A program made the position numbers and the translations under genes. Source: Streptomyces xanthophaeus (GTDB taxonomy: Bacteria; Actinomycetota; Actinomycetes; Streptomycetales; Streptomycetaceae). Taken from it: a DNA stretch of 64,000 bases. The notes below the pieces were generated by a model. That model had not been told where the DNA came from, did no database searches, and was given only the letters and a program-made list of their open reading frames with translations. The stretch spans positions 358,687-422,686 of the forward strand of contig NZ_JOFT01000012.1 of NCBI RefSeq assembly GCF_000725805.1, read 5' to 3'. Shown here piece by piece: positions 10,968 to 61,922 of the stretch (the stretch's first letter is position 1; each line of letters starts with the position of its first letter).

Positions 10968-11019
10968 ACCGCGTCCGCACACCGCGTCCGCACACCGCGT
11001 CCGCACACCGCGTCCGCCC
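10968..11019. repeat. Four tandem 13-bp repeats (accgcgtccgcac)
   Basis: Four copies lie end to end (10968-10980, 10981-10993, 10994-11006, 11007-11019). The first three are identical and the last has one change. They fill most of the gap between the lipoprotein gene and the GNAT gene, close to the GNAT stop. Confidence 0.9.
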
Positions 11020-11027
11020 GCCGCGGC

Positions 11028-46680: not shown

Positions 46681-48045
46681 TCAGGGAGCGGGGAAGTCCA
46701 CCGGGCGGGCGGCGGTCTGCGAGGACTCCTGCGGGGACTCTTCCGGGGACGTACGCCCGGACTCCTCCGGAGCGGGCGTACGGGTGAAGCGCGGACCGGC
46801 CGCCAGGGCGGCGGCCCCCGCCGCCAGTGAGACCAGGCCGCCCCCGTACAGCACCCAGCGGGTCCCCCAGTGCTCCGACAGCCAGCCCGTCAGTACCGCG
46901 CTGAGCGGAGTCGTGCCCTGGAAGATCAGGGTGTACAGGGCCATGACCCGCCCCCGGTACAGGGGATCCGAGCCGAGCTGGACGCGGTGGTTCGTGGCCT
47001 GCGCGAAATACATCATCGCGAAGCCGGTCAGGGCGAGGAGCAGGCAGGCGGTCGGCAGGGTCGGGGCGAGCCCGGTGACGGCCTCCAGCGCACCGAAGGC
47101 GAGCGCCGAGCCCGCCACCACCACGGCCGTGGGGCGCCCGCGCCGCGCCGTCGTCGCCAGGGCCGCCAGCAGCGATCCCACCGCCAGCGAACTGCTCAGC
47201 AGGCCGAAGGCGGTCGAGTCGGTGTGGAACTCCGTCTTGGCCAGCAGGGGGAGCGTCAGCTGGAAGTTGAAACCGACCAGACCGAGGACGCCCACCAGGG
47301 CCATCGGCAGGACGAGGTCGGGGCGGCGCCCGATGTAGCGCAGCCCGTCCACCACGCGCGCCTTGCGCGGCCGGGTGGCCGGCCGGTGGAGCTCGGCGGG
47401 GCGCATCAGCGCGACGCTGACCACGGTCGCGAGGTAGCTGACGGCATTGACCAGGACGACCGGCCCGACGTCGAACCGGGCGATGAGCAGGCCCGCCAGG
47501 GCCGGCCCCACCACCCGCGCCACGTTGAAGTACGCGGCGCTCATCGCCGAGGCGTTCGGCAGCAGCTCGCTGCCCACCATCTCGCTGACGAACGAGATCC
47601 GGGTGGGCGCCTCGATCGCGTTCACGGTGCCCAGGGCGAGGGCGAAGAGCCAGATGTGCCACAGCTGCACGCTGCCCAGCACCACCCACAGGCCCAGGGC
47701 CAGCGCGAGCACCCCGAGCGACAGGTTGGCCAGGATCAGGATCCGCCGCTTGTCGTAGCGGTCGGCCAGCCGTCCCCCGTACAGCGTCAGCAGCAGGACG
47801 GGCGTGAACTGCATCGCCGTCACCGTGCCGAGGGCCGTGCCGGAGTTCCCCGAGAGTTCCAGCACCAGCCAGTCCTGGGCGATGACCATCATCCACGTAC
47901 AGGTCAGGGAAAGGAGCTGGCCGAAGGCGAACAGCCGGAAATTGCGCACCGCCAGCGACTGGAAGGTGCGTCTCAAGGTCTTCACGGTGCGGTCGGTTCC
48001 CTTTCCACAGCGCCACGGTGGGTCCGGCGGCACTTCGGGGGACAT
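46681..48045 (-). CDS. Major facilitator superfamily exporter
   Basis: The 454-residue protein has about 12 membrane helices and the MFS motif between helices 2 and 3 (GGRLADRYDKRRILI). Further features are LALGTVNAIEAPTRISFVSE, as in enterobactin exporter-like (EntS/MFS_3) transporters, and a cytoplasmic loop RPAELHRPATRPRKARVVDG after helix 6. The acidic Ser/Glu/Pro C-terminus (about 420-454) is cytoplasmic. It probably exports drugs or a small metabolite by proton antiport. ATG 48045 follows GGAG. Tandem 26-bp repeats lie 44 bases upstream of the start. Confidence 0.87.
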   Translation of the reverse strand: MSPEVPPDPPWRCGKGTDRTVKTLRRTFQSLAVRNFRLFAFGQLLSLTCTWMMVIAQDWLVLELSGNSGTALGTVTAMQFTPVLLLTLYGGRLADRYDKRRILILANLSLGVLALALGLWVVLGSVQLWHIWLFALALGTVNAIEAPTRISFVSEMVGSELLPNASAMSAAYFNVARVVGPALAGLLIARFDVGPVVLVNAVSYLATVVSVALMRPAELHRPATRPRKARVVDGLRYIGRRPDLVLPMALVGVLGLVGFNFQLTLPLLAKTEFHTDSTAFGLLSSSLAVGSLLAALATTARRGRPTAVVVAGSALAFGALEAVTGLAPTLPTACLLLALTGFAMMYFAQATNHRVQLGSDPLYRGRVMALYTLIFQGTTPLSAVLTGWLSEHWGTRWVLYGGGLVSLAAGAAALAAGPRFTRTPAPEESGRTSPEESPQESSQTAARPVDFPAP

Positions 48046-48088
48046 GGTCGCTCCGCTCGCTCGATTCTCCGTGGTGCCTGCCGGGAGG

Positions 48089-48140
48089 CCCGGTTCCCGG
48101 CCCGGCCGCCGGTGCCCGGTTCCCGGCCCGGCCGCCGGTG
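48089..48140. repeat. Two tandem 26-bp repeats upstream of the MFS gene
   Basis: Two identical 26-base copies (48089-48114 and 48115-48140) plus the first five bases of a third lie in the 225-base gap between the MFS start and the end of the EEP gene. Confidence 0.85.
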
Positions 48141-48270
48141 CCCGGCGCGCAGCACGGCCACGTCCCCCGATCATCGGACGCCGCCCCCGGACGCGCACGG
48201 CGCGTCCCGCCGGGTGCCCGTACCCGCGCCCCCGTACCGCGCCCGCACCCCCGCCCTCCGGGCGGCCCGG

Positions 48271-49257
48271 TTAGAACCGGATGCGTGCGAGGACCGGCAG
48301 GTGGTCGCTCCCGGTCCGCGGAAGCGTCCTGACCCCGGTGACCGTCCCCGACCGGGTCAGCACCTGGTCGATCCGGGCGACCGGCAGGGCGGCGGGCCAG
48401 CTGAAGGCGAAATCCGGTCCGCTCCCGTCGGTCCGCGAGGTGATGGGAGCCAGCCCGCGGTCGTCCACCGTGCCGTTGAGATCGCCCATCAGGAGCACCT
48501 TCTCCAGCGGTTCGGCCGCCAGGGCCCGTCCGAGGAGGACGGCGCTCTCGTCCCGGGCCTGGGACCGGAACCCGCTGCCCGGCCCGAGGCGCACGGACGG
48601 CAGGTGCGCGACGTACACGGCGATCTCGCCCTCCGGCGTACGGGCGGTCGCCCGCAGCCCGCGGTCCCAGTCCTCCCCGAACCCCTCCGGCCTGATGTCC
48701 ACCGGACGCACGTCGTGGAGCGGGTGCTTCGACCAGAGGCCGACCGTGCCCCGGGTCGCACGGTGCGGGTACGCGGCGGCGAGGGCCGCCTCGTAGACCC
48801 GTTGGGCCGGGGGAGTGAGTTCCTCCAGGGCGATGACGTCGGCGCCGGCGGCGAGCAGGGTCCGTGCGGTGCCCGCCGGGTCCGGGTTCTCGTCGCCGAC
48901 GTTGTGCTGGAGGGCGGTGAAGGTGCCCGCCGGGCCGGTCGCGGGGAGCAGCAGGCCGCCGAAGAGCCCGAGCCAGGCGGCGGCGGGCAGCAGCGCGGCG
49001 GCAGCGGCGAGCCGCGAGCGCCGCAGCAGGGCCGCGCCCAGGAGCACGGGGACGGCCAGGCCGAGCCACGGCAGGAAGGTCTCCAGCAGGCTGCCCGGAC
49101 GGCCGGGCAGCTCGGGCACGGCCCCGTGGCCCACCAGCAGCAGGGCGACGAGTACGGCCGTCACCGCGAGCAGGCGCCCGCCGGACCGCCGCGTCACCGC
49201 GAGCAGCCGCCCGCCCGACCGCCCCGGCCCCTCGTCCCCCGCGTCCCTCCCCGCCAT
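48271..49257 (-). CDS. Membrane-anchored endonuclease/exonuclease/phosphatase-family enzyme
   Basis: The 328-residue protein begins with a short cytoplasmic segment containing a duplicated octamer (SGGRLLAV twice). Three membrane helices follow (AVLVALLLVGHGA, FLPWLGLAVPVLLGAALL and AAAALLPAAAWLGLFGGLLL), then an external EEP domain (about 105-328): ALQHNVGDENPD, VIALEELTPPA, AVYVAHLPSVRLGP, LMGDLNGTVDD and TGSDHLPVLARI. The HN, E, DxN and SDH residues form the metal site. This topology is common among Streptomyces EEP proteins of unknown substrate. I use ATG 49257 (GGAG 5 bases upstream); GTG 49260 is adjacent. Confidence 0.85.
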   Translation of the reverse strand: MAGRDAGDEGPGRSGGRLLAVTRRSGGRLLAVTAVLVALLLVGHGAVPELPGRPGSLLETFLPWLGLAVPVLLGAALLRRSRLAAAAALLPAAAWLGLFGGLLLPATGPAGTFTALQHNVGDENPDPAGTARTLLAAGADVIALEELTPPAQRVYEAALAAAYPHRATRGTVGLWSKHPLHDVRPVDIRPEGFGEDWDRGLRATARTPEGEIAVYVAHLPSVRLGPGSGFRSQARDESAVLLGRALAAEPLEKVLLMGDLNGTVDDRGLAPITSRTDGSGPDFAFSWPAALPVARIDQVLTRSGTVTGVRTLPRTGSDHLPVLARIRF

Positions 49258-49349
49258 CACCGCTCCCGTCGGCCGTCGCGCGGCCCGGCCCCGTGCCCGC
49301 GCCCCGCCCGGTACGACGACGCGCGACCGGGCGGGGCGGTTGCACCGGT

Positions 49350-49378
49350 GAGGGCGCCGGCCCGCGGCCGGCGCCCTC
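49350..49378 (-). terminator. Terminator at the end of the six-gene oxidative operon
   Basis: A perfect 12-bp stem (49350-49361 with 49367-49378) with a 5-base loop lies 16 bases beyond the stop of the WXG-like gene, the last gene of the operon that begins at 57463. Confidence 0.8.
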
Positions 49379-49393
49379 AGGTCCCGGCACGGG

Positions 49394-49633
49394 TCAGTGG
49401 CGGTCCAGCTGCGCCGCCGAGCGGGCCAGGGCGTCCGCAGCCGTGACGCAGCGCGCGGCCAGGGCCTCCAGGCGGTCCCGGAACTCGTCGGCCTGCGGGC
49501 CCCTCCAGTCGAGCCCGTCCGCGTCGGCCCGCAGCCGCTCGGCGTGCCGGCGCAGGGCGGCCGAATGGGTGTACAGGCCCTCCACCGGGCCGGTGGGGAC
49601 GGCTGCCGCGCGGGGGGCGGGGATGTCCGTCAC
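49394..49633 (-). CDS. WXG100-like small helical protein
   Basis: The 79-residue protein is a predicted helical hairpin: LYTHSAALRRHAERLRADAD, then GLDWRGPQADEFRDRLEAL, then AARCVTAADALARSAAQLDR. The WRG turn between two helices and the overall size fit WXG100-type (ESX/type VII-related) proteins, although the conserved C-terminal YxxxD/E export signal is not visible. GTG 49633 overlaps the stop of the heme dioxygenase gene (GTGA), so it is translationally coupled and belongs to the operon. It could be a chaperone-like partner of one of the enzymes; that is a guess. Confidence 0.65.
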   Translation of the reverse strand: MTDIPAPRAAAVPTGPVEGLYTHSAALRRHAERLRADADGLDWRGPQADEFRDRLEALAARCVTAADALARSAAQLDRH

Positions 49634-51579
49634 GCGCTCCTCCAGGGGGCGAAGGCGTTGGTCACGCCGGCCAGGGCGGGGCCCAGCTCGGGGTGGTGCC
49701 GCAGCAGGACGGTGACCATGGTGTTGCGGTCCACCCACTCCAGGCCCTCGGCCGTGTAGACCTCGGGGCGGTAGTCGGTGGTGAAGAAGCGGTCGCTCTT
49801 CAGACGGCGGCTCGCCATCAGGATGAAGATCCGGAACAGCGAGTCGCTGAAGCCGAACCCGGCCGGCCGCGGCTCCGCGAGGTTGCCCACGAGGGTGTCG
49901 ACGCGGTCGAGCCGGCCCTCGTACAGCTCCCGGATCAGGGCGGTGTCGCCCGGGTGCCCGCCCGTCAGCTCCTCGAAGGAGGAGACGGGGCGCTTGCGCA
50001 GCATCTGCCGGTAGGCGTTGTAGCGCGGGATGCCGCGCTCGCGGTCGCGCAGGATGTCGACGGTGCCGAGGTCGATGTGCTCACCGGTGAGCCGGGCCAG
50101 GTTGCGCAGCCCGTCGGGATGGTTGTGCAGGACCAGGGCGCCGGGATGGGCGGTGCCGAAGGTGTAGAGGAGGTCGCTCATCCCGAACTCGTCGACCGAG
50201 GTGCGGGTGGTCGCGCCCTGCATGTCGTTGAAGCCGATCGTCTTGCGCGCGCTGCCCGAAGCGTGGTCGCGGACGGTGACCTCGTCGGGGATCAGCGGGT
50301 GCAGCCGGTAGGCCGACACGAACTCCTCCGTCATGGAGAAGGGCGCCGCGTGATGGTCCGTCGGGGACCCCAGGATGCCGCTGAGCATCTCCCCCTTCCC
50401 GATCCGCCCGTACTTCCGGCTGACCCAACGGGGCAGCATGCCGTACCAGTTGGCGTCCATCCCCCGCTTCAGGACGGGCGTGTCGAGGATGCCGGGCGTC
50501 CACTCCACCGTGTGGATCTTCGCCATGAGCGCGGTGTTGACCAGCCGGGCCGTGTGGAAGAGCCGCTCGTCGGCCCAGGTCGGGTGGTGCCCGCGCAGGT
50601 GGTCGCAGATCGCGTTGTGCTCCTTGGCGAACAGCGTGTGGAGCAGTGAGAGCCCGGTCCAGTAGTCGCTGTTCATCCCGGTGGCGTCCAGGCATTCCAT
50701 GCCGGGACGGGGATCGGCGGGCAGCCTGCCGTCCTCGACGCGCAGCTTCCCGTACTCGCCGGTGCGCAGCGACCGGCACCTCGCCTCGTCGCTGCCGTAG
50801 ATCTGCGAGCCGTCCCACCAGTGCGTCACGGTGTTCTCGTACGTCGGCGGGGCGTCCGGGCCGGTGTGGGCCACCGGGTCGGGCCGGGTGCGGTTGACCC
50901 GCATCGGGCAGCTGCCGCCCGTCCGCGCCCAGTCGTCGTCCTCGGCGAGCGGGACGGTGAAGGGCTCGGCCTCCTCGTTGTCGCCGTGGTTGGCCCAGCC
51001 GTGGTTCTCGAACTGGATCCAGGCGGCGGCCAGCAGGTTGAGCGTGGGGGCGGGCACGAAGCCGCGGCGCGCCAGCAGCTGCCGGCTGATCTCCCGGGGG
51101 CTCGGCGCCATCAGTTCGGCGTCGGAGTCCGGGAAGACCAGGTGCAGCGGGGCGTTCCGGTCGAGCCGGGTGCCGACCCTGCCCATGTCCTCGTCGTACG
51201 GGTCGTAGCCCGAGCCGTCGTACGAGCGGTAGGGCGCGAGCTCTGCGGTGGGGCGGCGGGTGCGTTCGCCTCCGGCGCCGAACGTGTCGTGCAGGTTCTT
51301 CCTGCGCAGGTCTCCGCGGAGCACCGAGAGGTTCAGCAGCCCCAGGGTGGTGGGGAGTTCGTGCCACTCGCGGGTGCGGTTGATCCGCTCGAACGCCGCC
51401 GACCCGAGCCGTTCGAGGAGCCCGGGCGGACGGTGCCCGGGGGCCGGGCCGGGGCGGGCCGCACCCTGGACGGGAACCAGCGCCGACCCGGTCGCCGCCT
51501 GCGCGGCCCCGGCGGTCCCGGCGGCCCCTGCCGTCGTGCTCTTCGCGCCGGTCGCGGTCGTGTCTGTCGTGTCAGTCAT
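49630..51579 (-). CDS. Heme-dependent fatty-acid alpha-dioxygenase-like protein (cyclooxygenase/peroxidase superfamily)
   Basis: The 649-residue protein matches plant alpha-dioxygenase in length and motifs. These are the distal heme His near 193 (WIQFENHGWANHGD), LLHTLFAKEHNAICD, KIHTVEWTPGILDT, GMDANWYGMLPRW, and TEEFVSAYRLHPLIPD. In the last, Tyr ~424 precedes the proximal His ~427 by three, as the catalytic Tyr does in cyclooxygenases and alpha-dioxygenases. Retention of this Tyr argues for fatty-acid dioxygenation rather than plain peroxidase activity. The N-terminus (about 1-60) is an Ala/Thr/Pro tail without a signal peptide. Expected reaction: fatty acid plus O2 to 2-(R)-hydroperoxy acid. 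It starts 16 bases after the hydrolase gene. Confidence 0.8.
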   Translation of the reverse strand: MTDTTDTTATGAKSTTAGAAGTAGAAQAATGSALVPVQGAARPGPAPGHRPPGLLERLGSAAFERINRTREWHELPTTLGLLNLSVLRGDLRRKNLHDTFGAGGERTRRPTAELAPYRSYDGSGYDPYDEDMGRVGTRLDRNAPLHLVFPDSDAELMAPSPREISRQLLARRGFVPAPTLNLLAAAWIQFENHGWANHGDNEEAEPFTVPLAEDDDWARTGGSCPMRVNRTRPDPVAHTGPDAPPTYENTVTHWWDGSQIYGSDEARCRSLRTGEYGKLRVEDGRLPADPRPGMECLDATGMNSDYWTGLSLLHTLFAKEHNAICDHLRGHHPTWADERLFHTARLVNTALMAKIHTVEWTPGILDTPVLKRGMDANWYGMLPRWVSRKYGRIGKGEMLSGILGSPTDHHAAPFSMTEEFVSAYRLHPLIPDEVTVRDHASGSARKTIGFNDMQGATTRTSVDEFGMSDLLYTFGTAHPGALVLHNHPDGLRNLARLTGEHIDLGTVDILRDRERGIPRYNAYRQMLRKRPVSSFEELTGGHPGDTALIRELYEGRLDRVDTLVGNLAEPRPAGFGFSDSLFRIFILMASRRLKSDRFFTTDYRPEVYTAEGLEWVDRNTMVTVLLRHHPELGPALAGVTNAFAPWRSA

Positions 51580-51595
51580 CGTGCTTCGTCGTTCC

Positions 51596-52963
51596 TCAGC
51601 GGTCGTAGAGCTGGAAGAGCCGGGTGGCGGTGACCTTGCCGCGGTAGGGCGCGAGTTCCGCGTCGACGTGCGCGCTCGCCTCCGGCACGTCGAATTCGAG
51701 GTTGTGCGCGTACCGGTCGGCGGCGTGGCACAGCGGGAAGGCGTGCGTGTCGTCGGTCCAGGTGAACTCGGTGAACTGCGCGGGCAGAGCGTAGGGGGAG
51801 CACGCCGAGCGCCCCTCCAGACTGGGCACCACGTCGTGTTCGTTGACCAGGGAGCACACCCGGGTGCGCGGGTCCGCCGGACGCTTGCCGTCGATGGGCG
51901 AGCCGATCGCCACGACGTGGGTGACCCGGTAGAGCGCGCAGAAGTCCCGGTCCGCGGCCAGGTTCATGGCGGTGATGCCGCCCAGACTGTGCCCGACCAG
52001 CGCGAGCTCGGTGCCCGAGGGGACGGCCGAGCGCAGCGCCTTGGTGACGGCCCGGGAGTACGGGGTCGCGGGCCGGGCCACCGCGTTCAGGGCGCCCAGC
52101 AGGTCCTGCGGGCTCTCGCCCCGCAGCCCGGCCATTCCGGCGAGCTGGGCGACGTGGCGGGTCACCCCGTCCGGACCGGCGACCTGCTGGACGAGGAGGG
52201 TGCCGCCGGTGCCGATGGTCCCGATGTTGCGGATGTAGCCGCAGATGGTGCCCGAGGCGTCGAGGCGTTCCAGCAACGCCGGTTCGGACGGGCTGGGTTC
52301 GGCGCGGCCGGGGCCGCGGTCCAGGAGGGCCCAGAGCCGGGCGCCGATGCCGAGGAAGGGCTCCGCGGCGGTGAGGGTGCGGCCGGTGGCGATCTCCCAG
52401 CCCGCCTCGTCGTTGAAGGGGTTCTCGTCGGTGAGCGCGTTCCAGGCCGCGATGTCGGCGAAGGACGGGGCGAGCAGCGCGAAGGCCCGCTCGGCGCCCT
52501 GGTTCCCGATGATGGCCTTGAAGACCCGGACCGCCTCGGCCTGCCGGTCCTGTTCGATGGCGCGGATGACCCGGGCGGTGTCCGGATCCTCGAGCAGTTC
52601 GGGGTGTTCCACCGCGGCGGCCCGGATACGGGCCTTGAGGCCGGTGACGGCCAGACTGACGGCGAGGCTCTCACGGCTGGTCAGGACCCCGGCCAGCCAG
52701 GCGGCGCGGGCCAGGGGCCCGCGGCCCTGCGGGCCCCAGCCGAGTCCGGCGGGATCGGTGAGGGTCCGCAGCAGGCTGCGGCGGGCGGCGGGCGGGACCC
52801 CGGTGCCGAGGGCGAGGCCCGTGGCGTGCCGGGCGGCGTCCCGTACGGCGTCGGCGGCCTCGGCGAGGTCGCGGCAGAGCTGGTGGAGGGAGGCCACGTC
52901 CGGTTCGGTGACGGACGGGACGGGGCCACAGGGAGCGGTGGGATCGGCAGCGGCTTCGGGCAC
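51596..52963 (-). CDS. Lipase-like alpha/beta-hydrolase
   Basis: The 455-residue protein has a helical N-terminal half (about 20-200, including ASLHQLCRDLAEAADAVRDA) and a C-terminal alpha/beta-hydrolase. The nucleophile elbow is ELALVGHSLGGITAM near 325, the probable acid lies in SLVNEHDVVPS and the His in HAADRYAHNLEF. The layout resembles class-3-type lipases. No signal peptide, so it should act on intracellular lipids. Position between a P450 and a fatty-acid dioxygenase-like enzyme (18 and 16 bases) suggests it frees the acyl substrate. Substrate unproven; a thioesterase is an alternative. Confidence 0.78.
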   Translation of the reverse strand: MPEAAADPTAPCGPVPSVTEPDVASLHQLCRDLAEAADAVRDAARHATGLALGTGVPPAARRSLLRTLTDPAGLGWGPQGRGPLARAAWLAGVLTSRESLAVSLAVTGLKARIRAAAVEHPELLEDPDTARVIRAIEQDRQAEAVRVFKAIIGNQGAERAFALLAPSFADIAAWNALTDENPFNDEAGWEIATGRTLTAAEPFLGIGARLWALLDRGPGRAEPSPSEPALLERLDASGTICGYIRNIGTIGTGGTLLVQQVAGPDGVTRHVAQLAGMAGLRGESPQDLLGALNAVARPATPYSRAVTKALRSAVPSGTELALVGHSLGGITAMNLAADRDFCALYRVTHVVAIGSPIDGKRPADPRTRVCSLVNEHDVVPSLEGRSACSPYALPAQFTEFTWTDDTHAFPLCHAADRYAHNLEFDVPEASAHVDAELAPYRGKVTATRLFQLYDR

Positions 52964-52981
52964 GGATCGGCGTCCCTTCGG

Positions 52982-54397
52982 TCAGCGTGCGGTGAGGGTG
53001 AGGTGGACGGCCGCGGCGTCCAGGGCGCCCGGCAGCGGCCGGTGCGGGTCCAGCGCCGGACGGTCCCCGCCGACCCGGTGGCCGCGCAGCACCTCGGCGC
53101 AGACCGCGGCGGTGACGAGCAGGCCCAGCTGGTCTCCGGGGCAGCGTCCGCCGCCGTGTCCGAACGGGGCCATCTGCGTGTCCTCGTCGGCTTCCGGGGC
53201 GAGCCAGCGGCCCGGCACGAAGAGATGGCCGCCCGGCACGTGCTCGGGGTCGCGCTGGTGGAAGGCCATCGGTGCGAGCACGTGGGTGCCGGCCGGGTAG
53301 GTCACCCCGCGCCATTGGGTGGGCGCCCGGGTGACCCGGACGAAGTCGGGGACCACGGGGTAGAGCCGGATCGTCTCCTGTACGCAGGCCCGCAGCCGCG
53401 ATCCCTGGGCGATCCCGCTGTCCCCGGTGACCGCGTCCTGCTCCGCCGGATGGGCGGCGAGCAGCCGCAGGGTCCGGGCGGCCACGTGCGCGGCCACGTC
53501 CAGGGCGAGCAGCCAGTGATGGGCCTGCCCGACCCGGTCGAGCTCGGCGTCGAGCGCGGTGGCGGGTCCGGCGAGGGCCCGGCCGATCAGGGTGTGCGCG
53601 GGGGCGTCGGCGGCGTACGACTCCAGGCGGGCGTTGGCCCGTGCGTACAGCCGCCGGGCGGCGAGGGCGCGGCCCTTGCGCAGGCCCAGCCAGTTGGCCT
53701 CCTCGCGCAGGGCCACCAGCCAGCGGTGCAGTTCCTCGTCGTCCCGGGCCAGGTCGCCGAGGACCAGACGGCGGGAGATCCGCTGGAAGGCGCGGAGCAG
53801 CCGGGGGAAGTCCAGTCCGGGTCCGCGGGTCAGCGGGGCGCACTCCTCGGCGACGACGGAGAGGTACTCCGCGCAGGAGGGGTGGACGGGCCGGTCGGCC
53901 GCCAGGGCGTGGTCGTTGACCTCGCGCCGTGCCTCGCGCAGGGCCCCGTGGGAGCAGATCACCCCGGTGGGTTCGAGGACCCCGAGCATCTTGACCTTGT
54001 CGACGGCGTCCATGGCGAGGGTTTCCATGGGCTCGGCGAAGAACTGCCGTACGTCGGCGGGGTCGAGGAGGACCAGCATCTCGCCGGAGAGCGCGCGGAT
54101 CCGAACGGGGGAACCGCCGTGGCGGGCGCGCAGGGCCCGGAAGGTGGCGGCCGACCAGCCGTACTGGTTGACCGAGGCCAGCGCGGACACCATGGCGGGG
54201 CGGGGGGCGGAGATGCCCCTGGTGAAGGCGGGGAGGGTGTGGGTGAGGACGAACCGCAGGGTCTCGGCGCGTCCCGCGCGGCCCGGGTCGGCCGTCCGCC
54301 CCGGCCCCGGGACGGGCGCGTCGCCGGCGGGGTCGTGGCCGGCCGCGTTCGGGGGCGCGGACACCGCGTCCGTGGTGGTGAGCTCGGACTCGGTCAT
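52982..54397 (-). CDS. Cytochrome P450 with altered I-helix
   Basis: The 471-residue P450 has the K-helix ETIR near 340 (ACVQETIRLYPVVPDF) and the heme-binding loop APFGHGGGRCPGDQLG with Cys ~419. In the I-helix the usual A/G-G-x-D/E-T aligns with LALDV: the acid is kept as Asp but the Thr that delivers protons to oxygen is Val. Such proteins may depend on peroxide or on substrate-assisted oxygen activation. The N-terminus (about 1-45) is a Pro/Ala/Gly tail. ATG 54397 overlaps the stop of the FAD-oxidase gene (ATGA). No ferredoxin gene is adjacent. It could process a fatty-acid hydroperoxide made by the dioxygenase. Confidence 0.88.
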   Translation of the reverse strand: MTESELTTTDAVSAPPNAAGHDPAGDAPVPGPGRTADPGRAGRAETLRFVLTHTLPAFTRGISAPRPAMVSALASVNQYGWSAATFRALRARHGGSPVRIRALSGEMLVLLDPADVRQFFAEPMETLAMDAVDKVKMLGVLEPTGVICSHGALREARREVNDHALAADRPVHPSCAEYLSVVAEECAPLTRGPGLDFPRLLRAFQRISRRLVLGDLARDDEELHRWLVALREEANWLGLRKGRALAARRLYARANARLESYAADAPAHTLIGRALAGPATALDAELDRVGQAHHWLLALDVAAHVAARTLRLLAAHPAEQDAVTGDSGIAQGSRLRACVQETIRLYPVVPDFVRVTRAPTQWRGVTYPAGTHVLAPMAFHQRDPEHVPGGHLFVPGRWLAPEADEDTQMAPFGHGGGRCPGDQLGLLVTAAVCAEVLRGHRVGGDRPALDPHRPLPGALDAAAVHLTLTAR

Positions 54398-55812
54398 GCC
54401 TCGATCACCTTGCCGGGGTTGAGCAGGTTCTTCGGGTCGAAGAGCCGCTTGAGCCCGCGGTGCAGTTCCAGTGCGACCGGGTCGAGCTCGCGGGTCAGCC
54501 AGTCGCGCTTGAGGATGCCGATGCCGTGCTCCCCGGTGCTGGTGCCACCGAGGGCGAGACCGGCGGCCATGATGTCGTCGTACGCAGTCTGCGCGCGCCG
54601 GAACTCGTCCGGGTCGGACTCGTCGAAGACGACCGTCGGGTGCAGGTTGCCGTCCCCGGCGTGACCGAGGGTGAAGATCCGCAGCCGGTACCGGGCGGCG
54701 ATCTCCTCGATCGTCCCGATGAACTTGGCGAGTTCGGAACGCGGCACGGCCACGTCCTCGATGAAGGCGGTGGGCCTGCCGCCCAGGGTCGCGGCGAAGG
54801 CGCCGAGGGCGGGCGTGACCAGCCGCCGGGCCTCGATGATCTGCCGGGACTCCTCGGTGGTGGCGGCGGTGACCACGTTCTGCGCTCCGGCGCCCTTGCA
54901 GAGCAGGTCCATCGTGTGCAGGTCGCGCAGCGGGTCGCCGGCGTCGCTCTCGACGATCAGGGTGGCGGCGCTGCCGGGGCGCAGCAGCGGGTGCCCGTAG
55001 TCCGCGACGGCCTGGGTGGTGGCCCGGTCGAGGAGTTCGAGGGCCGAGGGCACGTGCCCGGCGGCGGTGATCGCCGCGACGGCGTCCCCGGCCGCGGTCA
55101 GGCTGGGGAACTGGGCCAGCAGGGAGAGGGCCGGCGGACGCGCGGGCCGCAGGGCGAGGGTGGCCCCGACGACCACCGCGAGCGTGCCCTCCGAACCGAC
55201 CATGAGCCGGGTCAGGTCGTAGCCCGCCACGCCCTTGGCGGTGTCCCGGCCGGTGCGCATCCGGCGGCCGTCGGGAAGGACGAGGTCCAGCCCGAGCACG
55301 TAGTCGGCGGTGACCCCGTACTTGACGCAGCAGATGCCGCCCGCGCCCGTGGCGATGTTCCCGCCGATGGTGCAGCGTTCCCAGGAGGCGGGGTCGGGCG
55401 GATAGGTCAGGCCGTGCTCGGCCACGGCGTCGCCCAGGTGCTTGGTGACGACCCCGGGCTCGCAGCGCACGAGCCGGTTGGCGGGGTCGATCTCCAGGAT
55501 GCGGTCCATCCGGGAGGTGTTCAGCACGAGGCAGCCGTCGACGGCGTTGGCCGCGCCCGCGAGACCGGTGCGGGCGCCCTGGGGGACCACGGGAACGCCG
55601 AGGGCGTACGTGGTGCGCAGGATCTGCTCGACCTGCTCGGCGGTGCGGGGCAGGGCGACGACCGCGGGGGTGCCGGGCTCGGAGAAGGGCGCCGAGTCCC
55701 GGGTGTGGGCGGCGAGCGTCTCGGCGTCGGTGTACAGGATGCTGTCGGGGCCGCCGTCCGCGTCGGCCAGGAGGGCGCGCAGGCGGGACAGGAGGGGGGT
55801 GTCGGGAGACAT
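54394..55812 (-). CDS. FAD-linked 2-hydroxyacid oxidase (GlcD/D-lactate dehydrogenase type)
   Basis: The 472-residue flavoprotein has a PCMH-type FAD domain (about 45-225) with VVPQGARTGLAGAAN, CTIGGNIATGAGG and GYDLTRLMVGSEGTLAVV. The C-terminal FAD-oxidase domain has FTLGHAGDGNLHPTVVF and GTSTGEHGIGILKR, hallmarks of the GlcD/DLD family that oxidises D-(R)-2-hydroxy acids to 2-oxo acids. No GlcE/GlcF genes adjoin it, so it may act alone as do DLD and D2HGDH. ATG 55812 lies 46 bases after the ThDP enzyme gene, and its stop overlaps the P450 start. Confidence 0.9.
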   Translation of the reverse strand: MSPDTPLLSRLRALLADADGGPDSILYTDAETLAAHTRDSAPFSEPGTPAVVALPRTAEQVEQILRTTYALGVPVVPQGARTGLAGAANAVDGCLVLNTSRMDRILEIDPANRLVRCEPGVVTKHLGDAVAEHGLTYPPDPASWERCTIGGNIATGAGGICCVKYGVTADYVLGLDLVLPDGRRMRTGRDTAKGVAGYDLTRLMVGSEGTLAVVVGATLALRPARPPALSLLAQFPSLTAAGDAVAAITAAGHVPSALELLDRATTQAVADYGHPLLRPGSAATLIVESDAGDPLRDLHTMDLLCKGAGAQNVVTAATTEESRQIIEARRLVTPALGAFAATLGGRPTAFIEDVAVPRSELAKFIGTIEEIAARYRLRIFTLGHAGDGNLHPTVVFDESDPDEFRRAQTAYDDIMAAGLALGGTSTGEHGIGILKRDWLTRELDPVALELHRGLKRLFDPKNLLNPGKVIEA

Positions 55813-55858
55813 ACCGGCCTTCTGGAGGTCGTACGGGGAGGGGGTGCGGGCGGGTGCT

Positions 55859-57463
55859 CTACAGCGACGGGAGTTCGGTGGTGACCGGTACGTCGATGAG
55901 CACGGGGCCGTCCTGCTGGGCGGCGGAGTCCCGGACGAGCTTGGTGAGTTCGCCGGAGCCCTGGACGCGATGGGTGCGCAGGCCGTAGCCGGCGGCGATC
56001 GCGGTGATGTCGAGACCGGGGATGTCGAGGCCGGGGGCGCCCTCGGCGTGCTCGAGCCGGGCGAACCACTGGAGGATCGCGTAGCGGGCGTTGCTGAGCA
56101 CCACGAAGGTGACGGGGAGCCGGTAGTGGGCGGCGGTCCACAGGGCCTGGACGGCGTAGTGGACCGAGCCGTCGCCGATGACGGCGATCACGGGCCGGTC
56201 GGGTGCGCCGAGCTGGGCGCCGACGGCGGCCGCCGCGCCGAAGCCGAGCCCGCCGCCCGCGGAGAACAGGTAGGAGCGGGGGCTGCTGATGCGGGCGGCC
56301 TCGTGGAACCGGGGCACGTTGGAGGGGGATTCGTTGACCCAGAGGGTGTTCTCGGGGGCGCCCTGTGCGACCGCGGAGAGCGCGGCGAGGGGGGTGAGGA
56401 CGCCCTCCGTCTCCTCGGGGAAGCGCACCTGCTCGTGGGGCTCGCGGACTTGGCTGCCGGCCGGGAAGTGCTCCGCGAGACCCCGTACGGTCAGGGCCAG
56501 GTCGGCCACGACGGCGTCGCCGACGGGGGCCCTGGCCGCCTCCTCGGCGTCCCGGGTGAGCAGGAGGAGCTCGGTGCCCTCGGGCAGGTAGGCACCGGGG
56601 ATGTAGGGGTAGTAGCGGAACACCGGCGCGCCGATGACCACGACGAGGTCGTGGCCGGCGAGCTGGCCGCTGAGCGGCCCGATCGCCGGGACCAGTTCGC
56701 CGCGGAACTGCGGGTGGTCGTACGGGAAGGACACCCGGGCCGAGACGGGCGCCGCCCAGACCGGGAGTCCCGTGCGGTCCGCGAGGTCCACGACCGCGTC
56801 CCAGGCTCCGGAGGCGTCGACGTCGTCGCCGACGACGAGGACGGCGGAGCGGGCCGCGGCGATCCGTCCGGCGAGCTCGGCGAGCACGGCCGGGGCGGGG
56901 ACGGCGGCGTGCGTGACCCGGCGGGCGGCGGCCACCTGGGCGCCCCGGTCCTCGGCCGCGGTCAGCTCCGCGTCCATGTCGTCCATCGGGAGGGAGACGA
57001 AGACGGGCCCGTGCGGCGGGGTTTCGGCGATCTGGGCGGCGCGGGCGAGCGCGGGAGCCACGTCGGCGGGGCGCGGCGGCTCGTACGCCCACTTCACGGC
57101 GGGCTGGGGCAGGAGCGTGGCCTGCGGGTTGGAGAGCAGGGCCTCCATGGTGAGCATGGCGCGGACCTGCTGTCCGGCGGTGACCACCATCGGGGTGCGG
57201 TTCGCCCGGGCGTTGAGGATGGCGCCCATGGCGTTGCCGGTGCCCGGTCCGGTGTGCAGGTTGACCAGGGCGGTGGTGCCGGAGGCGAGGGCGAACCCGT
57301 CGGCCATGCCGACCACGACGGCCTCCTGGAGGCCGAGCACGTACCGGAAGTCCTCGGGGAAGTCCTTGAGCATCGGCAGTTCGGTCGATCCCGGATTGCC
57401 GAAGACGGTGGTCATCCCACGGGCTCGCAGAACGTCGAGTACGGCTTCTCGAACCGTGCGCAT
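55859..57463 (-). CDS. Benzoylformate decarboxylase-like ThDP enzyme
   Basis: The 534-residue protein aligns from its first residue with Pseudomonas putida benzoylformate decarboxylase (528). S26 (GNPGSTELP), E47 (GLQEAVVVG) and H70 (NLHTGPGTGNAMG) fall at identical numbers, and the ThDP motif runs GDGSVHYAVQALW to VLSNARYAIL. The other catalytic His of that enzyme, H281 as I recall, lies in FRYH; here the site reads FRYYPY, with Tyr ~285. This should alter protonation and product choice. Expected reaction: 2-oxo acid to aldehyde plus CO2. ATG 57463 follows GGAGG by 8 bases; it is the first gene of the operon and divergent from the nSTAND1 gene. Confidence 0.88.
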   Translation of the reverse strand: MRTVREAVLDVLRARGMTTVFGNPGSTELPMLKDFPEDFRYVLGLQEAVVVGMADGFALASGTTALVNLHTGPGTGNAMGAILNARANRTPMVVTAGQQVRAMLTMEALLSNPQATLLPQPAVKWAYEPPRPADVAPALARAAQIAETPPHGPVFVSLPMDDMDAELTAAEDRGAQVAAARRVTHAAVPAPAVLAELAGRIAAARSAVLVVGDDVDASGAWDAVVDLADRTGLPVWAAPVSARVSFPYDHPQFRGELVPAIGPLSGQLAGHDLVVVIGAPVFRYYPYIPGAYLPEGTELLLLTRDAEEAARAPVGDAVVADLALTVRGLAEHFPAGSQVREPHEQVRFPEETEGVLTPLAALSAVAQGAPENTLWVNESPSNVPRFHEAARISSPRSYLFSAGGGLGFGAAAAVGAQLGAPDRPVIAVIGDGSVHYAVQALWTAAHYRLPVTFVVLSNARYAILQWFARLEHAEGAPGLDIPGLDITAIAAGYGLRTHRVQGSGELTKLVRDSAAQQDGPVLIDVPVTTELPSL

Positions 57464-57953
57464 GAGGATCCTCCAGGCAATGGGGGGCGACCGTGGGTGA
57501 TCAATCCAGCACGCTCCGCAGAGGGTTGGCAAACCGTGCCGGGTGAGCGCCCGCGTCGGGGAAAAGCCCTCCAAAAATCGTTTCCGCACCCGTCCGGCAC
57601 CGCGGTTCACCAAGGGGGTGACGTCCACCCGGCGCCGGGGAAGTCGCCCACACGTGTCTGCCCCCGGCCGGTCCCGGAAGGCCCGGGGGAGGGCCCCGGC
57701 CGCCCGCCGGTCCGTGCCCGCAGGGCGGCGGTCGAGGTGGAACGGGGGCGGCGGCTGGGGCCGCACCAGCCGGGAGTGGCGGGAGAGGATGGCCGGAAAA
57801 CACCCCTTTCGCACCCGCCCGGACCCCGGACCGCTGCATTCCGGCCCCGGGTCCGCGACGCCGGGGGAGGGTGGTCCCCGCACTGCTGACGCACGGCTGA
57901 CGTCCGGCCGCCCCCCACTGCTGCCGCACCGGAATTCCGACCACGGAGGCCCG
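57464..57953. other. Divergent intergenic region (490 bp)
   Basis: It separates the oxidative operon from the nSTAND1 gene and must hold both promoters. A short AT-richer patch (about 57558-57590) lies near the operon side. Imperfect dyads are GGCA-N5-TGCC at about 57530-57542 and TTCACC facing GGTGA at about 57607-57622. No convincing reading frame or terminator was seen. Confidence 0.6.
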
Positions 57954-60900
57954 ATGGACCGTACGCCCACCCCGCCCTTACCCCCTTCGCCACGCGAGGA
58001 GTTCGCGGCCGAGCTGACCCGGCTGCGCGAGAAGGCCGACCTCACCGTCCGTGCCGTCGCCGCCCGCGTCGACGCCCCCGGCGCCCACACCACCGTGGGC
58101 GGCTGGTTCGCGGGCCAGAACCTGCCCTCGATCGGCTCCCTCCCCCTGTTCCGGCAGGTGCTGCACGTCTGCGGGGTGCGCGAACCGGCCGAGATCGAGC
58201 GCTGGATCGAGACGCTGGCCGAACTGCGGCGCACCCGCGTGCCGCGCGCCGTGCACGCAGCCGTGCCCTACCGGGGCCTGGCCGGATTCGAGGAGCGGCA
58301 CGCCGAGTGGTTCTTCGGCCGTGACCGGCTGCGCGACACCGTGGTGGCACAACTCCTGGCGGACGGCGCGATCGTGGCCGGGGGCGCCGCCGTCCCCGTG
58401 CCCCGGCTGCTGGTCGGCGCCTCCGGCTCCGGCAAGTCCTCGCTGCTGCGGGCCGGAGTGCTGCCCGTGCTGCGCGCCGCGCACGGCTTCGTCCCCTGCC
58501 TGCTCACGCCCGGCCGGCATCCGCTCGCCGCACTGGCCTCGGCCGTCGACGCGCTCACCGGCCCACAGGAGACGGCCCGGTCCGCGGAGGCGTCCGGGTC
58601 CCCTCCCGCCGTGCCCGATGACTCCGACGCCCCCGGAACCCCCGACCCGCTCGCCCTCGCCGCCCGGGTACGGAGCTTCGCCGCACGGCAGTCCGTACGG
58701 GTCGTGGTGGCCGTCGACCAGTTCGAGGAGGTCTTCACCGTCTGCCGGGACGCCGCCGAACGCGAGCGGTTCCTGCGCTGCCTGGCCGCACTGCCCGCGC
58801 CGGACGTACGGGTCGCGGGCGCTCTGCGCGCGGACTTCTACCCGGACGCCCTCGGCGAACCCCTCCTCGCCGCCGCGCTCCAGAACGGGCAGACCGTCGT
58901 CGGCGCGCTCACCGAGGAGGAGACCCGCGCCGTGGTCACCGGACCCGCCGTCAAGGCCGGGCTCACCGTGGACGAGGGCTTCGTCGACCTGCTCCTCGCC
59001 GACCTGCGGGACTCGGGCGCCGGAGCACTGCCCCTGCTGTCGCACGCACTGCTGTCCACCTGGGAGCGCGGCCGGGGCACGAAGCTGACGATCGCCGACT
59101 ACCGGGCCGGCGGCGGCATCTCCGCCGCCATCTCCGCGACAGCCGAGGAGGCCTATGCCGAGCTGAGCGAGGAGCAGCGGAGCCTGGCCCGCGTGCTCTT
59201 CCTGCGCATGGTCACCGTCGGGGACGGCGGCCCCGACACCCGTCGGCTCCTCCCGCTCCCCGATGCGGGCGGACCCGGGGACCCGGCGGGCCGGGACCGC
59301 GCCGGGCAGGTGTACGAGGTACTGGAACGGTTCGTCGACCGGCGGCTGGTCACCCTGGACGCCGACGGCTCGCAGATCACCCACGAGGCGCTGCTCACCG
59401 CCTGGCCCCGGCTGCACCGATGGATCGACACCGACCGGGCCGGACACCTGGTGTGGCAGGAACTCGGCCGGGACGCGGAGCGCTGGCTGGCCCAGCACCG
59501 CGAGCCCTCGCTGCTCTACCGGGGCGCGCGGCTCGCCGTCGCCGCGGGCTGGGCCGAACAGAGCGGCCGGGGCCCGGAACTGACCGTACGGGAGACCTCC
59601 TTCCTCGCCGCGAGCCGGGACGCGGAGGAGGCCCGGGCCCGTCGCGAGCGGCACCGCACCCGGCGGCTGCGGCAGCTCCTCGTCCTGCTGTCGGTGCTCG
59701 TCGTCCTCTCGGGCCTGCTCACGGGCATCGCGGTGGTCCAGCGGCGGGACGCGGAGCACCAGCAGGCGGTGGCGCTGTCGCGGCTGGTGGCGGCCCGCGC
59801 GGAACGGCTGCGCGGCAGTGACCTGGCACTGGCGGCACAGCTCAGCCTGGTGGCCTACCGGACGGCGCCCACCGCCGAGGCCCGTTCGGCACTGATGGAC
59901 GCCTCGGCCCTGCCCGCGGTCACCCGGATCCTCGCCTTCCGGGGCGTGGTGCAGGCGGTGGCGCTCAGTCCGGACGGGCACACCCTCGCCGCGGGCGGAC
60001 TGGACCGGCAGGTCGCCCTGTGGGACGTGCGCGACCCCCAGCACCCCCGGGAACTGGGCACCGCCCCGCACGACTTCGGGGACACCGTGTACGCGCTGGC
60101 CTTCAGCCCCGACGGGCGGCGGCTCGCCGCGGGGGCCGGGGACGGGACCGTACGGGTGTGGGAACCGTCGGGTCCCGCCGGATCGCGGGTGCTCACCGGC
60201 CCTGAATCCGCGGTCTACGGGGTCGCGTTCGCGCCGGACAGCCGCACGCTCGCCGCAGCGGGCGCCGACGGCGGGGTGTACCTCTGGCGGGACCCCGCAG
60301 CCGCCGACGGAGCCGCGGCCGCAGGGGGATCGGCCGGGCCGGCCGCCGGGCCGGAGCGGCTCGCCGGATTCACCGGCCCCGTGCACACGGTCGCCTTCCG
60401 CCCGGGCGGCGCCACCCTCGCGGCCGGAGGCGCCGACGGGACGGTCCGGCTGTGGGACACCTCCGCGCCGGGCCTGCCGGTCCCGTACGCCGAGGCGCTG
60501 ACCGGGGCGGCGGGCCCGGTGTTCGGCCTGGCCTTCACCCCCGACGGGAGCCGGCTCGCGGCCGCCAGCCAGGACCGCTCCACCCGCGTGTGGACCGTGC
60601 CCGACCCCCGCGGGACCCCGGTCGCCCCGGAGGTCATCGGCGGGGCGCCGGCCGTGCCCGACGGCCCGGCCAGCTACGTCAACGCGGTCGGGTACGGCCC
60701 GGACGGACAGTGGACGGCGACCGGCAGCGCCGACAACCAGGTCCGCCTCTACCGCACCGGCACCGCGACGCCCGCCGCCGTCTTCCCGCACCCCGGACCC
60801 GTCACCGCGCTGGCCTTCCTGCCCGGCGGCCAGGGCCTGGTCACCGGCGCGGCCGACGGGACGGTCCGGCTCTGGCAACTGCCGTCCCGCCCGCTGCGGG

Positions 60901-61922
60901 GCTTCCAGGGCACCGTCAACGCCATCGGGTTCAGCCCCGACAGACGGCTGCTGGCCGTTGCGGCCAAGGACGTACAGCTGTGGGACGTGAGCGACCCCTG
61001 GACGCCCCGCCCCGTGGGGCAGCCGCTCACCAACGCGACGGGGTTCTCCGGGACGGTCTCCTTCACCCCTGACGGCCGCACCCTGGCCGTGGGCGGCCGG
61101 GAGGGCAAGGTCTGGCTCTGGGACCTCACCCGCCCCGAACGGGCCGCGCCCTACGGGGAACCGCTGGCCGGCGGCACCGGAACCATCCAGTCCGCTGTCT
61201 TCGACCCGGCGGGCGGGGCGCTCGCCGTCGGCAGCGAGGGCCGTACCGTGCGGATCTGGGACACCCGCGAACCGGCCCGGCCCGCGCTGTCGGCCGAGCT
61301 CACCGAACCCACCAACTACGTGTACTCGGTGGCGTTCAGCCCGGACGGGCGGCGCCTCGCGGCCGGGACCGTCGACAAACAGGTCCTGCTGTGGCGGCTG
61401 CCCGCACCCGGCGGCGGGGCGCCCGCGCACGAGGCGACCCTGCGCGGCCCAGGGAGCTACGTCATGTCCGTGGCCTTCGGCCCGGACGGCCGCACGCTGG
61501 CCGCGGGCACCGCCGACCGGGACGTGTGGCTGTGGGACGTGAGCGGCGAGCGCCCGGTCAGCGCCGGCCCGCCACTGACCGGCCCGAGCAGCTACGTCTA
61601 CGCCCTGGCCTTCAGCCCGGCGGGCGGCACCCTGGCCGCGGCCAGCACCGACAGCACCGTCTGGCTCTGGAACACCCGCGACCCCGGTCGGCCGCAGCCC
61701 GAGGCCGTACTGAGCGGTCTGCGGGGCAAGGCCTACGCGATCGCCTTCGGCCCGGACGGCCGCTCGCTGGCCGCCGGCGGCTCGGGGCCGGAGGCACTCC
61801 TGTGGACCACCGACGAGGAGGCGGTGCGCAGCCGGATCTGCGAACGGGCCGGGTCGCCGATCACCCGGCAGGAATGGGCGCACCTGGTGCCGGGACTGCC
61901 GTACGCGCCGCCCTGCCGGTGA
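57954..61922 (+). CDS. nSTAND1 NTPase with HTH-like N-terminus, membrane helix and WD40 repeats
   Basis: The 1,322-residue protein has an N-terminal helical domain (about 8-90, LTRLREKADLTVRAVAARV), the nSTAND1 entry signature AVPYRGLAGFEERHAEWFFG near 105 and Walker A GASGSGKSS near 155. The Walker B-like VVVAVDQFEEVF lies near 250, followed by a winged-helix region and one membrane helix near 575-598 (VLLSVLVVLSGLLTGIAVV). About 14 WD40 blades fill 655-1300 (for example AFSPDGRRLAAG, WDVRDP). STAND proteins are signalling switches; many serve in programmed death or phage defence, yet this type is abundant in Streptomyces. ATG 57954 follows GGAGG by 5 bases. No effector gene is adjacent. Confidence 0.88.
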   Translation: MDRTPTPPLPPSPREEFAAELTRLREKADLTVRAVAARVDAPGAHTTVGGWFAGQNLPSIGSLPLFRQVLHVCGVREPAEIERWIETLAELRRTRVPRAVHAAVPYRGLAGFEERHAEWFFGRDRLRDTVVAQLLADGAIVAGGAAVPVPRLLVGASGSGKSSLLRAGVLPVLRAAHGFVPCLLTPGRHPLAALASAVDALTGPQETARSAEASGSPPAVPDDSDAPGTPDPLALAARVRSFAARQSVRVVVAVDQFEEVFTVCRDAAERERFLRCLAALPAPDVRVAGALRADFYPDALGEPLLAAALQNGQTVVGALTEEETRAVVTGPAVKAGLTVDEGFVDLLLADLRDSGAGALPLLSHALLSTWERGRGTKLTIADYRAGGGISAAISATAEEAYAELSEEQRSLARVLFLRMVTVGDGGPDTRRLLPLPDAGGPGDPAGRDRAGQVYEVLERFVDRRLVTLDADGSQITHEALLTAWPRLHRWIDTDRAGHLVWQELGRDAERWLAQHREPSLLYRGARLAVAAGWAEQSGRGPELTVRETSFLAASRDAEEARARRERHRTRRLRQLLVLLSVLVVLSGLLTGIAVVQRRDAEHQQAVALSRLVAARAERLRGSDLALAAQLSLVAYRTAPTAEARSALMDASALPAVTRILAFRGVVQAVALSPDGHTLAAGGLDRQVALWDVRDPQHPRELGTAPHDFGDTVYALAFSPDGRRLAAGAGDGTVRVWEPSGPAGSRVLTGPESAVYGVAFAPDSRTLAAAGADGGVYLWRDPAAADGAAAAGGSAGPAAGPERLAGFTGPVHTVAFRPGGATLAAGGADGTVRLWDTSAPGLPVPYAEALTGAAGPVFGLAFTPDGSRLAAASQDRSTRVWTVPDPRGTPVAPEVIGGAPAVPDGPASYVNAVGYGPDGQWTATGSADNQVRLYRTGTATPAAVFPHPGPVTALAFLPGGQGLVTGAADGTVRLWQLPSRPLRGFQGTVNAIGFSPDRRLLAVAAKDVQLWDVSDPWTPRPVGQPLTNATGFSGTVSFTPDGRTLAVGGREGKVWLWDLTRPERAAPYGEPLAGGTGTIQSAVFDPAGGALAVGSEGRTVRIWDTREPARPALSAELTEPTNYVYSVAFSPDGRRLAAGTVDKQVLLWRLPAPGGGAPAHEATLRGPGSYVMSVAFGPDGRTLAAGTADRDVWLWDVSGERPVSAGPPLTGPSSYVYALAFSPAGGTLAAASTDSTVWLWNTRDPGRPQPEAVLSGLRGKAYAIAFGPDGRSLAAGGSGPEALLWTTDEEAVRSRICERAGSPITRQEWAHLVPGLPYAPPCR

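Follow-up and report, generated by a model that had tools for sequence, protein, structure and literature searches.

A conserved Streptomyces operon built around an alpha-dioxygenase homologue: a predicted route from fatty acids to n-1 aldehydes

What does a fatty-acid alpha-dioxygenase do in an actinomycete, and why should its gene stand in line with those of a decarboxylase, a flavoenzyme, a cytochrome P450 and a hydrolase? The question is raised by a six-gene operon in a stretch of 64,000 nucleotides from Streptomyces xanthophaeus (GCF_000725805.1, contig NZ_JOFT01000012.1, positions 358,687-422,686), hereafter called the window, whose own numbering is used for the coordinates of its features. 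An original prediction, drawn from this DNA alone, had proposed that the operon performs fatty-acid alpha-oxidation and releases an aldehyde one carbon shorter than the acid (the n-1 aldehyde). The catalytic residues of the dioxygenase and the conservation of its neighbours across genomes lead us to a similar answer: with a probability of roughly 60%, the operon would encode a coenzyme A (CoA)-independent fatty-acid alpha-oxidation (oxylipin or aldehyde) system, the chemistry being predicted from sequence.

The haem protein, referred to below as DOX, matches the animal haem peroxidase family (PF03098, 351 bits), and its homologues are labelled 'peroxidase family protein' in public records. Its top solved relatives are 4kvj, a fatty acid alpha-oxidase (370 bits), and 4hhr, an alpha-dioxygenase (351 bits), which we take to be the rice and Arabidopsis enzymes, respectively; both alignments run from residue 54-55 to the C-terminus. 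A lactoperoxidase-type enzyme was rejected, since lactoperoxidase scored 94 bits versus 370 for the alpha-dioxygenase. Catalytic residues were mapped by hand from the alignment with the solved alpha-dioxygenases, using the Arabidopsis residue numbers and the rice numbers given in PMC8720084. The distal and proximal histidines were assigned to H193 and H427, the catalytic tyrosine to Y424, the carboxylate-binding pair to H356 and R592, and the threonine at the alpha-carbon to T361. Conservation is complete: H193, H356 and T361 are found in 40 of 40 sequences, and Y424, H427 and R592 in all 39 that cover them, the remaining sequence being cut. DOX thus possesses both the catalytic tyrosine with the two haem histidines and the carboxylate-binding histidine and arginine with the alpha-carbon threonine. 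Three haem peroxidases of related genomes that served as controls (the partial sequences L067-L069) keep the tyrosine and the proximal histidine and are without the histidine, threonine and arginine of the second set.

The substrate channel follows the same pattern. Among the 13 channel residues of the rice enzyme listed in passages of PMC8720084, 12 are identical in DOX and M325 is replaced by Leu; rice F379, for which chain 4kvj has Tyr and 4kvl has Phe, was scored as Tyr in this count. In a second Streptomyces alpha-dioxygenase clade, the distal histidine is replaced by Arg in five of seven sequences. The alpha-dioxygenase identity put forward in the original prediction is therefore backed by the catalytic residues and by similarity to solved enzymes, and we strongly infer that the window protein is a fatty-acid alpha-dioxygenase homologue with a predicted 2-(R)-hydroperoxidation activity.

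The gene belongs to a series of six on the minus strand, running from 57463 down to 49394. All six open reading frames (ORFs) are present, with intergenic gaps of 46, -4, 18, 16 and -4 bases, as had been claimed. The features are the following:

55859..57463, minus strand: thiamine diphosphate (ThDP)-dependent 2-oxo acid decarboxylase of the benzoylformate-decarboxylase family, operon-specific clade (NF005485, 636 bits)
54394..55812, minus strand: GlcD/DLD-type flavin adenine dinucleotide (FAD) enzyme, predicted (R)-2-hydroxyacid dehydrogenase or oxidase (PF01565 and PF02913)
52982..54397, minus strand: cytochrome P450 of a group mostly without the I-helix threonine, predicted to use a hydroperoxide (PF00067)
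51596..52963, minus strand: predicted acyl hydrolase of the alpha/beta type, its N-terminal part helical (Abhydrolase_8 / Lipase_3, weak)
49630..51579, minus strand: fatty-acid alpha-dioxygenase homologue, DOX (PF03098; matches to solved alpha-dioxygenases)
49394..49633, minus strand: small WXG/T7SS-like protein with a GTG start and a 4-base overlap with the dioxygenase gene (T7SS_signal, below cutoff)
49342..49390, minus strand: terminator-like hairpin after the last gene, without a T-run (-43.8 kcal/mol, z -3.97)

Among the families first named, the hydrolase match is weak and the small gene falls below the cutoff of its model. At the terminator announced behind the last gene, the hairpin is strong, and no T-run is present in the sequence.

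Are these genes neighbours by chance? Scanning a single genome of each species with the dioxygenase yielded 38 loci (numbered with the prefix L), and partners were counted from tblastn matches within up to 10 kb on each side. The P450 was found near DOX at 34 loci, the lipase at 30, the FAD enzyme at 27, the ThDP enzyme at 26 and the small gene at 17; all five enzyme genes occur together at 24 of the 38 loci, in four arrangements. Sequence is truncated close to the dioxygenase at L041 and L049 and within the gene set at L021; L038 and the distant L053 possess none of the partner genes. The five genes are divergent in Rhizohabitans and Sinosporangium (Streptosporangiaceae) and in Longispora (Micromonosporaceae), permuted in Nonomuraea soli, and a 39-kb Streptomyces plasmid record carries all six in the same order. 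The flanks of the window (6 kb upstream and 10 kb downstream) have at most 400 bases in common with any of 39 loci, so it is the unit, and not this region of the window, that is conserved.

In a less selected sample, spread evenly over the order and comprising 119 genomes with the window's own included, 23 genomes contained an alpha-dioxygenase at E 1e-50 or better. Besides the window's own, ten had a DOX of the operon clade (63-85% identity), and at these ten loci, five of which duplicate records of the 38-locus set, the ThDP, FAD and P450 genes were present in every case, the lipase at nine and the small gene at six. Control loci were taken from the other alpha-dioxygenase clade (45-49% identical), all 16 of this sample below 50% identity and five more from a search of 61 related genomes; no FAD, P450 or lipase gene was found near any of these 21. 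A ThDP enzyme of a different branch lies near four of them (L110, 5993-7555; L114, 12281-14047; L117, about 12323; L118, 12219-13934), with 22-30% identity and acetolactate-synthase-like models, and only that of L110 scores above a model cutoff. A ThDP neighbour as such is therefore not unique to the operon clade, and these cases might represent a parallel solution or chance. At L105, a 54% identical dioxygenase has the lipase as its sole partner. The co-location counts, the unshared flanks and the control clade lead us to reject chance neighbours; the expected co-occurrence within 10 kb and the joint conservation in related species both held.

The substrate of the ThDP enzyme is the next question. 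Its score exceeds the cutoff of the benzoylformate-decarboxylase (BFD) model (493 bits), and S26, E47 and H70 of BFD are conserved in all 28 operon sequences. The H281 and A460 of the aromatic-specific enzyme are not: position 281 is Tyr in 28 of 28, position 460 is Ile in 27 and Val in one, and T377 is Pro in 28 of 28. For the lack of H281 and A460, we classed the operon enzyme as a homologue of the family rather than as a BFD. H281 and A460 of BFD also occur in PMC11089019 and PMC9063327. In a midpoint-rooted tree, from which the overlong L048 sequence was left out, 27 operon sequences were monophyletic with respect to 10 non-operon paralogues of related genomes (support 0.955), none of which bears the full Tyr/Pro/Ile triad. 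A search of the PDB placed 4mpp above 1bfd (480.5 versus 475.8 bits); this BFD chain carries Y, P, T and I at the equivalents of 281, 377, 397 and 460 and is presumably an engineered variant, the differing letters being visible in the alignment. According to passages of PMC9063327, the A460I variant of BFD uses pyruvate, which the wild type cannot. The Tyr/Pro/Ile triad suggests that the operon enzymes act on aliphatic 2-oxo acids.

The FAD enzyme combines the PF01565 and PF02913 domains with the metal site of D-2-hydroxyacid dehydrogenases, His/His/Glu and the next His (H384, H391, E428 and H429), found in 29 of 29 sequences; it thereby belongs to the GlcD / D-lactate dehydrogenase family. 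According to passages of PMC10589216, LDHD of mouse, another member of this family, acts on the D- and not the L-forms of 2-hydroxyacids that have hydrophobic chains, D-2-hydroxyoctanoate being the longest tested, and oxidises them. The operon enzyme would oxidise an (R)-2-hydroxy acid to the 2-oxo acid.

The P450 is the point at which the original prediction has to be changed. The PF00067 match (61 bits) covers residues 335-441 only, in the C-terminal part, and the closest homologue among the matches listed is a 97% identical protein from Streptomyces xanthophaeus. Residues were counted in 35 sequences, L046 being left out as its frame appears broken. The cysteine ligand Cys419 and the arginine of the ExxR motif are present in 35 of 35, the glutamate of this motif is Asp in six, and Q291 and W295 of the I-helix are invariant (35/35). 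At position 301, the equivalent of the oxygen-activating I-helix threonine, we counted V 11, A 7, T 6, G 4, S 4, L 2 and I 1, with V in the window. This position was taken from the I-helix spacing in BM3, and is supported by the alignment of the P450 family profile with CYP184A1, where G-H-E-T-T stands opposite gap-L-D-V-V. A structure model (mean predicted local distance difference test score, pLDDT, 89.3) gave generic P450 matches, the top ones being CYP184A1 with oleate (Foldseek) and CYP51 (VIA); CYP74 was absent among the 50 matches listed by Foldseek and by VIA, which is no evidence either way.

Two other P450 families were considered for comparison. In CYP74, the I-helix threonine is replaced by I, A or V (passages of PMC1540422), and V, A or I occupies position 301 in 19 of our 35 sequences; the CYP74 side of this comparison comes from the published description. 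Membership in the CYP152 peroxygenases, in which Arg-Pro stands instead of the acid-alcohol pair (passages of PMC5818669), was rejected: neither Arg300 nor Pro301 occurs in the 35 sequences, and the NF053744 model scored 23 versus 600 bits. Most members are without the I-helix threonine, which makes an ordinary O2-activating hydroxylase an unlikely reading of the P450. This absence, together with that of any ferredoxin or ferredoxin reductase gene among the six (Pfam annotation), argues for the use of a hydroperoxide instead of O2 and a redox partner. The P450 is thus probably a hydroperoxide-using enzyme, a role that fits better than the earlier suggestion that it perhaps installs the 2-oxygen.

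For the hydrolase, the family matches are weak (PF06259, Abhydrolase_8, 24 bits; Lipase_3 also weak), and a Foldseek search with its model (pLDDT 78.9) gave no match at E 0.001 or better. Ser326 of the GHSLGG motif is conserved in 31 of 32 sequences, D377 in 32 of 32 and H407 in 30 of 32. The lipase role first assigned is weakened accordingly, since it rests on these matches and on a Ser/Asp/His set of which two of the 32 lose part. The start of the small protein was placed at the GTG at 49633; in that frame, the longest ORF begins at 49738. Residues W48 (18/19) and G50 (19/19) of the protein are conserved; T7SS_signal scores 19.8 bits for a cutoff of 27, so the name 'WXG-type' stands for a resemblance only, in a gene that accompanies fewer than half of the loci.

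These assignments can be arranged into one predicted route. The alpha/beta hydrolase would release an acyl acid, into which the alpha-dioxygenase, by homology and residues a strong candidate for this step, would insert O2 at C2, forming the (2R)-hydroperoxy acid. A part of this 2-hydroperoxide would decarboxylate to the n-1 aldehyde, as in known alpha-dioxygenases, whose products include both aldehyde and (R)-2-hydroxy acid (passages of PMC8720084); the remainder may become the (R)-2-hydroxy acid, spontaneously or through the hydroperoxide-using P450. The GlcD/DLD-type flavoenzyme would then form the 2-oxo acid, and the ThDP enzyme would decarboxylate it to the same n-1 aldehyde, so that through these two last steps the hydroxy-acid branch would also yield aldehyde. 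The two steps make up a separable module, as several species keep only P450, lipase and DOX, or P450 and DOX, in proximity. The route from acid through 2-hydroperoxide, 2-hydroxy acid and 2-oxo acid to n-1 aldehyde is chemically consistent. The aldehyde pathway originally proposed is thus retained for the DOX residues, the FAD metal site, the ThDP clade and the kept gene set; it is modified for the oxygenation by P450, the obligatory character of the ThDP and FAD steps, the lipase and the small gene.

A pair of genes for hydroperoxide defence, Ohr (OsmC family) and the MarR-type OhrR, lies upstream of the operon at seven of 39 loci (L016, with the pair at 10125-11132, L017, L018, L019, L020, L026 and L052), where OhrR and the ThDP gene are 0.7-2.7 kb apart; common flanks at several of the seven suggest that these may be one event. 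The same pair is found 0.6 kb from an other-clade dioxygenase at one of 21 loci (L106). Such neighbours fit a dioxygenase that would release an organic hydroperoxide.

Several observations weigh against this alpha-oxidation reading. The ThDP and FAD genes are both absent from the DOX neighbourhood, with full flanks, at L037, L042, L045, L050, L044, L046 and L054; because they are missing at these seven of the 34 loci where DOX and P450 occur together, they constitute an optional module. The lipase is lost at L020 and L026, and its homologue has neither Ser nor His at L037 and no His at L050. The FAD enzyme does not reach the cutoff of the glycolate oxidase GlcD equivalog (TIGR00387, 412 bits for 567.9), and its relatives occur in 61 of 61 related genomes, most of the same-genus ones holding a 55-59% identical copy, which makes the operon gene one of several paralogues. 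Two non-operon ThDP paralogues come near the triad (L084 with Y/T/I, L088 with Y/P/V), and I460 points to aliphatic 2-oxo acids, not specifically to long chains. Ten of the 35 P450s have Thr or Ser at position 301, and monooxygenase P450s without the threonine exist (EryF, CYP176A1). The P450 subfamily also occurs at five places outside operons among the 61 genomes, three of them in genomes without an alpha-dioxygenase match; the neighbours of three P450s apart from DOX (an SPW-repeat gene, a chaplin and others) suggest no function. Finally, the Ohr/OhrR pair was not found in the window.

Could the P450, rather than the aldehyde, be the point of the system? In a DOX-P450 oxylipin cascade, the dioxygenase and the P450 would be the true core: the P450 would turn the 2-hydroperoxide into a signalling oxylipin by isomerisation or dehydration, with an aldehyde route that is secondary or absent and with the ThDP and FAD enzymes acting on by-products. 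The P450 is indeed the most constant neighbour, retained without nearby ThDP, FAD or lipase genes at L044 and L054 (at L046 its frame appears broken), with an I-helix threonine mostly replaced, as by I, A or V in CYP74 (PMC1540422, in part). At L067 (G033), L068 (G045) and L069 (G047), moreover, an unrelated haem dioxygenase adjoins a different P450, with a homologue of the window lipase within a few kb; the combination of dioxygenase, P450 and lipase thus recurs, the same lipase family being paired with an unrelated dioxygenase. The dioxygenase and P450 genes of L068 overlap by 8 bases, an H-D-C haem loop is present in L067 and L068, and these loci are a possible bacterial relative of the fungal dioxygenase-P450 (DOX-CYP) systems. 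However, the 2-hydroperoxide of a saturated acid should offer little isomerisation chemistry, the subfamily is also found apart from DOX, and with T in six and S in four of 35 sequences the loss of the I-helix alcohol is not universal. We regard such a cascade as unlikely, though far from negligible.

A unit that tailors or catabolises some non-fatty acid (aryl or polyketide), with a true benzoylformate decarboxylase and a DOX acting on an aryl-acetic or other acid, appears quite improbable. It would account for the NF005485 equivalog cutoff being passed, and biosynthetic clusters often contain P450s and hydrolases; yet no biosynthetic-cluster core enzyme was found within the conserved unit by Pfam annotation, the window flanks are not common to the loci, nearly all rice fatty-acid channel residues are kept, and the ThDP enzymes carry Tyr for H281 and Ile or Val for A460 throughout. 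That unrelated genes were merely inherited as a block in related genomes is very hard to believe, for while many loci come from related Streptomyces and half of the sampled ones repeat earlier records, there are four gene orders or orientations, the five genes persist in Rhizohabitans, Sinosporangium, Longispora and Nonomuraea soli, flanks are not shared, and the other clade has no FAD, P450 or lipase neighbour at its 21 loci.

Returning to alpha-oxidation, a fuller version can be formulated: a self-contained system without CoA or adenosine triphosphate (ATP), in which DOX would make the 2-hydroperoxide, a redox-partner-free P450 would process it, and the flavin and ThDP pair would send the 2-hydroxy branch to the n-1 aldehyde, the lipase-P450 partnership having arisen with two unrelated actinobacterial haem dioxygenases. 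This joint claim is tentative, and the odds are somewhat against all its parts holding together. Under it, the P450 would parallel, in bacteria, the COX/PGIS pair or the DOX-CYP pairs of fungi, with a 2-hydroperoxide as its substrate.

Other genes were observed around the operon and its relatives. In the window, a divergent neighbour at 57945-61922 encodes a 1325-aa nSTAND1 NTPase with WD40 repeats, and a similar gene lies in pieces upstream of the operon in L016. Downstream are a VanJ-like endonuclease/exonuclease/phosphatase protein (48271-49260, 302 bits for a cutoff of 700) and an MFS transporter (46681-48198); both were rejected as members of the unit, the window flanks not being common to other loci. 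On the plasmid record of L016, 5 kb upstream of the operon, a cluster at 3886-8819 comprises an FAD oxidoreductase, DUF1365, a cyclopropane-fatty-acid synthase, DUF1295 and a hydrolase, and adjoins genes for SigK and an anti-sigma factor. A gene for an SPW-repeat protein stands before the operon in L032 (3078-3518), and another before the DOX-free P450 subfamily member in L070 (7928-8428). The window's own genome holds a second P450 (L073, on contig 8 near 172-175 kb), whose matched part is 49-58% identical. The ORF behind it combines the N-terminal part of the lipase with a WXG-like tail and has no hydrolase core. No dioxygenase match was found in the 18 kb read there, and the locus looks like a decayed or alternative copy.

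The family tree in PMC8720084 already includes actinobacterial alpha-dioxygenase sequences, among the passages of that paper. In the open-licence literature searched, we found no description of this gene set or of an alpha-dioxygenase in Streptomyces, and no described role for the actinobacterial enzymes. The main text of the review PMC9305512 contains none of 'Streptomyces', 'actinobacter', 'operon' and 'gene cluster', and passages of PMC11719350 mention alpha-dioxygenase once, for plants. Each enzyme is of a known family, and the gene combination appears to be new within this literature.

The conserved operon gives the actinobacterial alpha-dioxygenases a concrete candidate role, with six proteins, a predicted n-1 aldehyde product and 2-hydroperoxy, 2-hydroxy and 2-oxo acids as predicted intermediates. 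Of interest for fatty aldehyde production are the P450 subfamily, whose I-helix is unusual, and natural ThDP decarboxylases bearing active-site residues seen in an engineered BFD.

How does the operon compare with known systems? DOX resembles the plant alpha-dioxygenases of rice and Arabidopsis from residue 54-55 on, in its catalytic residues and in its channel. Plant alpha-oxidation uses an aldehyde dehydrogenase, whereas the Streptomyces unit is an operon with P450, GlcD and ThDP genes. Mammalian peroxisomal alpha-oxidation proceeds through PHYH and then the ThDP lyase HACL1; it shares with our proposal an oxygenation at C2 followed by a ThDP step giving the n-1 aldehyde, but in the Streptomyces operon there is no CoA enzyme, a haem dioxygenase would insert O2, and a 2-oxo acid is proposed in place of a 2-hydroxyacyl-CoA. 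The BFD of Pseudomonas putida is similar to the ThDP enzyme over its full length and shares S26, E47 and H70, whereas the operon enzyme has Tyr, Pro and Ile at 281, 377 and 460.

The cyanobacterial alpha-dioxygenases CsDOX, CalDOX and LepDOX make n-1 aldehydes (passages of PMC8720084); unlike for the Streptomyces unit, the words 'operon' and 'P450' are absent from the main text of that paper. The CYP152 peroxygenases (PMC5818669, in part) share with the operon P450 a non-conserved acid-alcohol pair and a fatty-acid context, but the latter is without their Arg-Pro replacement and the similarity is weak (22-23 bits). The fungal linoleate DOX-CYP fusions (PMC13049297, in part) likewise pair a haem dioxygenase with a P450 that transforms the hydroperoxide; the Streptomyces unit differs from them in keeping the two as separate genes in the window and as separate tblastn matches at the other loci, in having an alpha-dioxygenase instead of an allylic one, and in adding lipase, FAD and ThDP enzymes to the pair.

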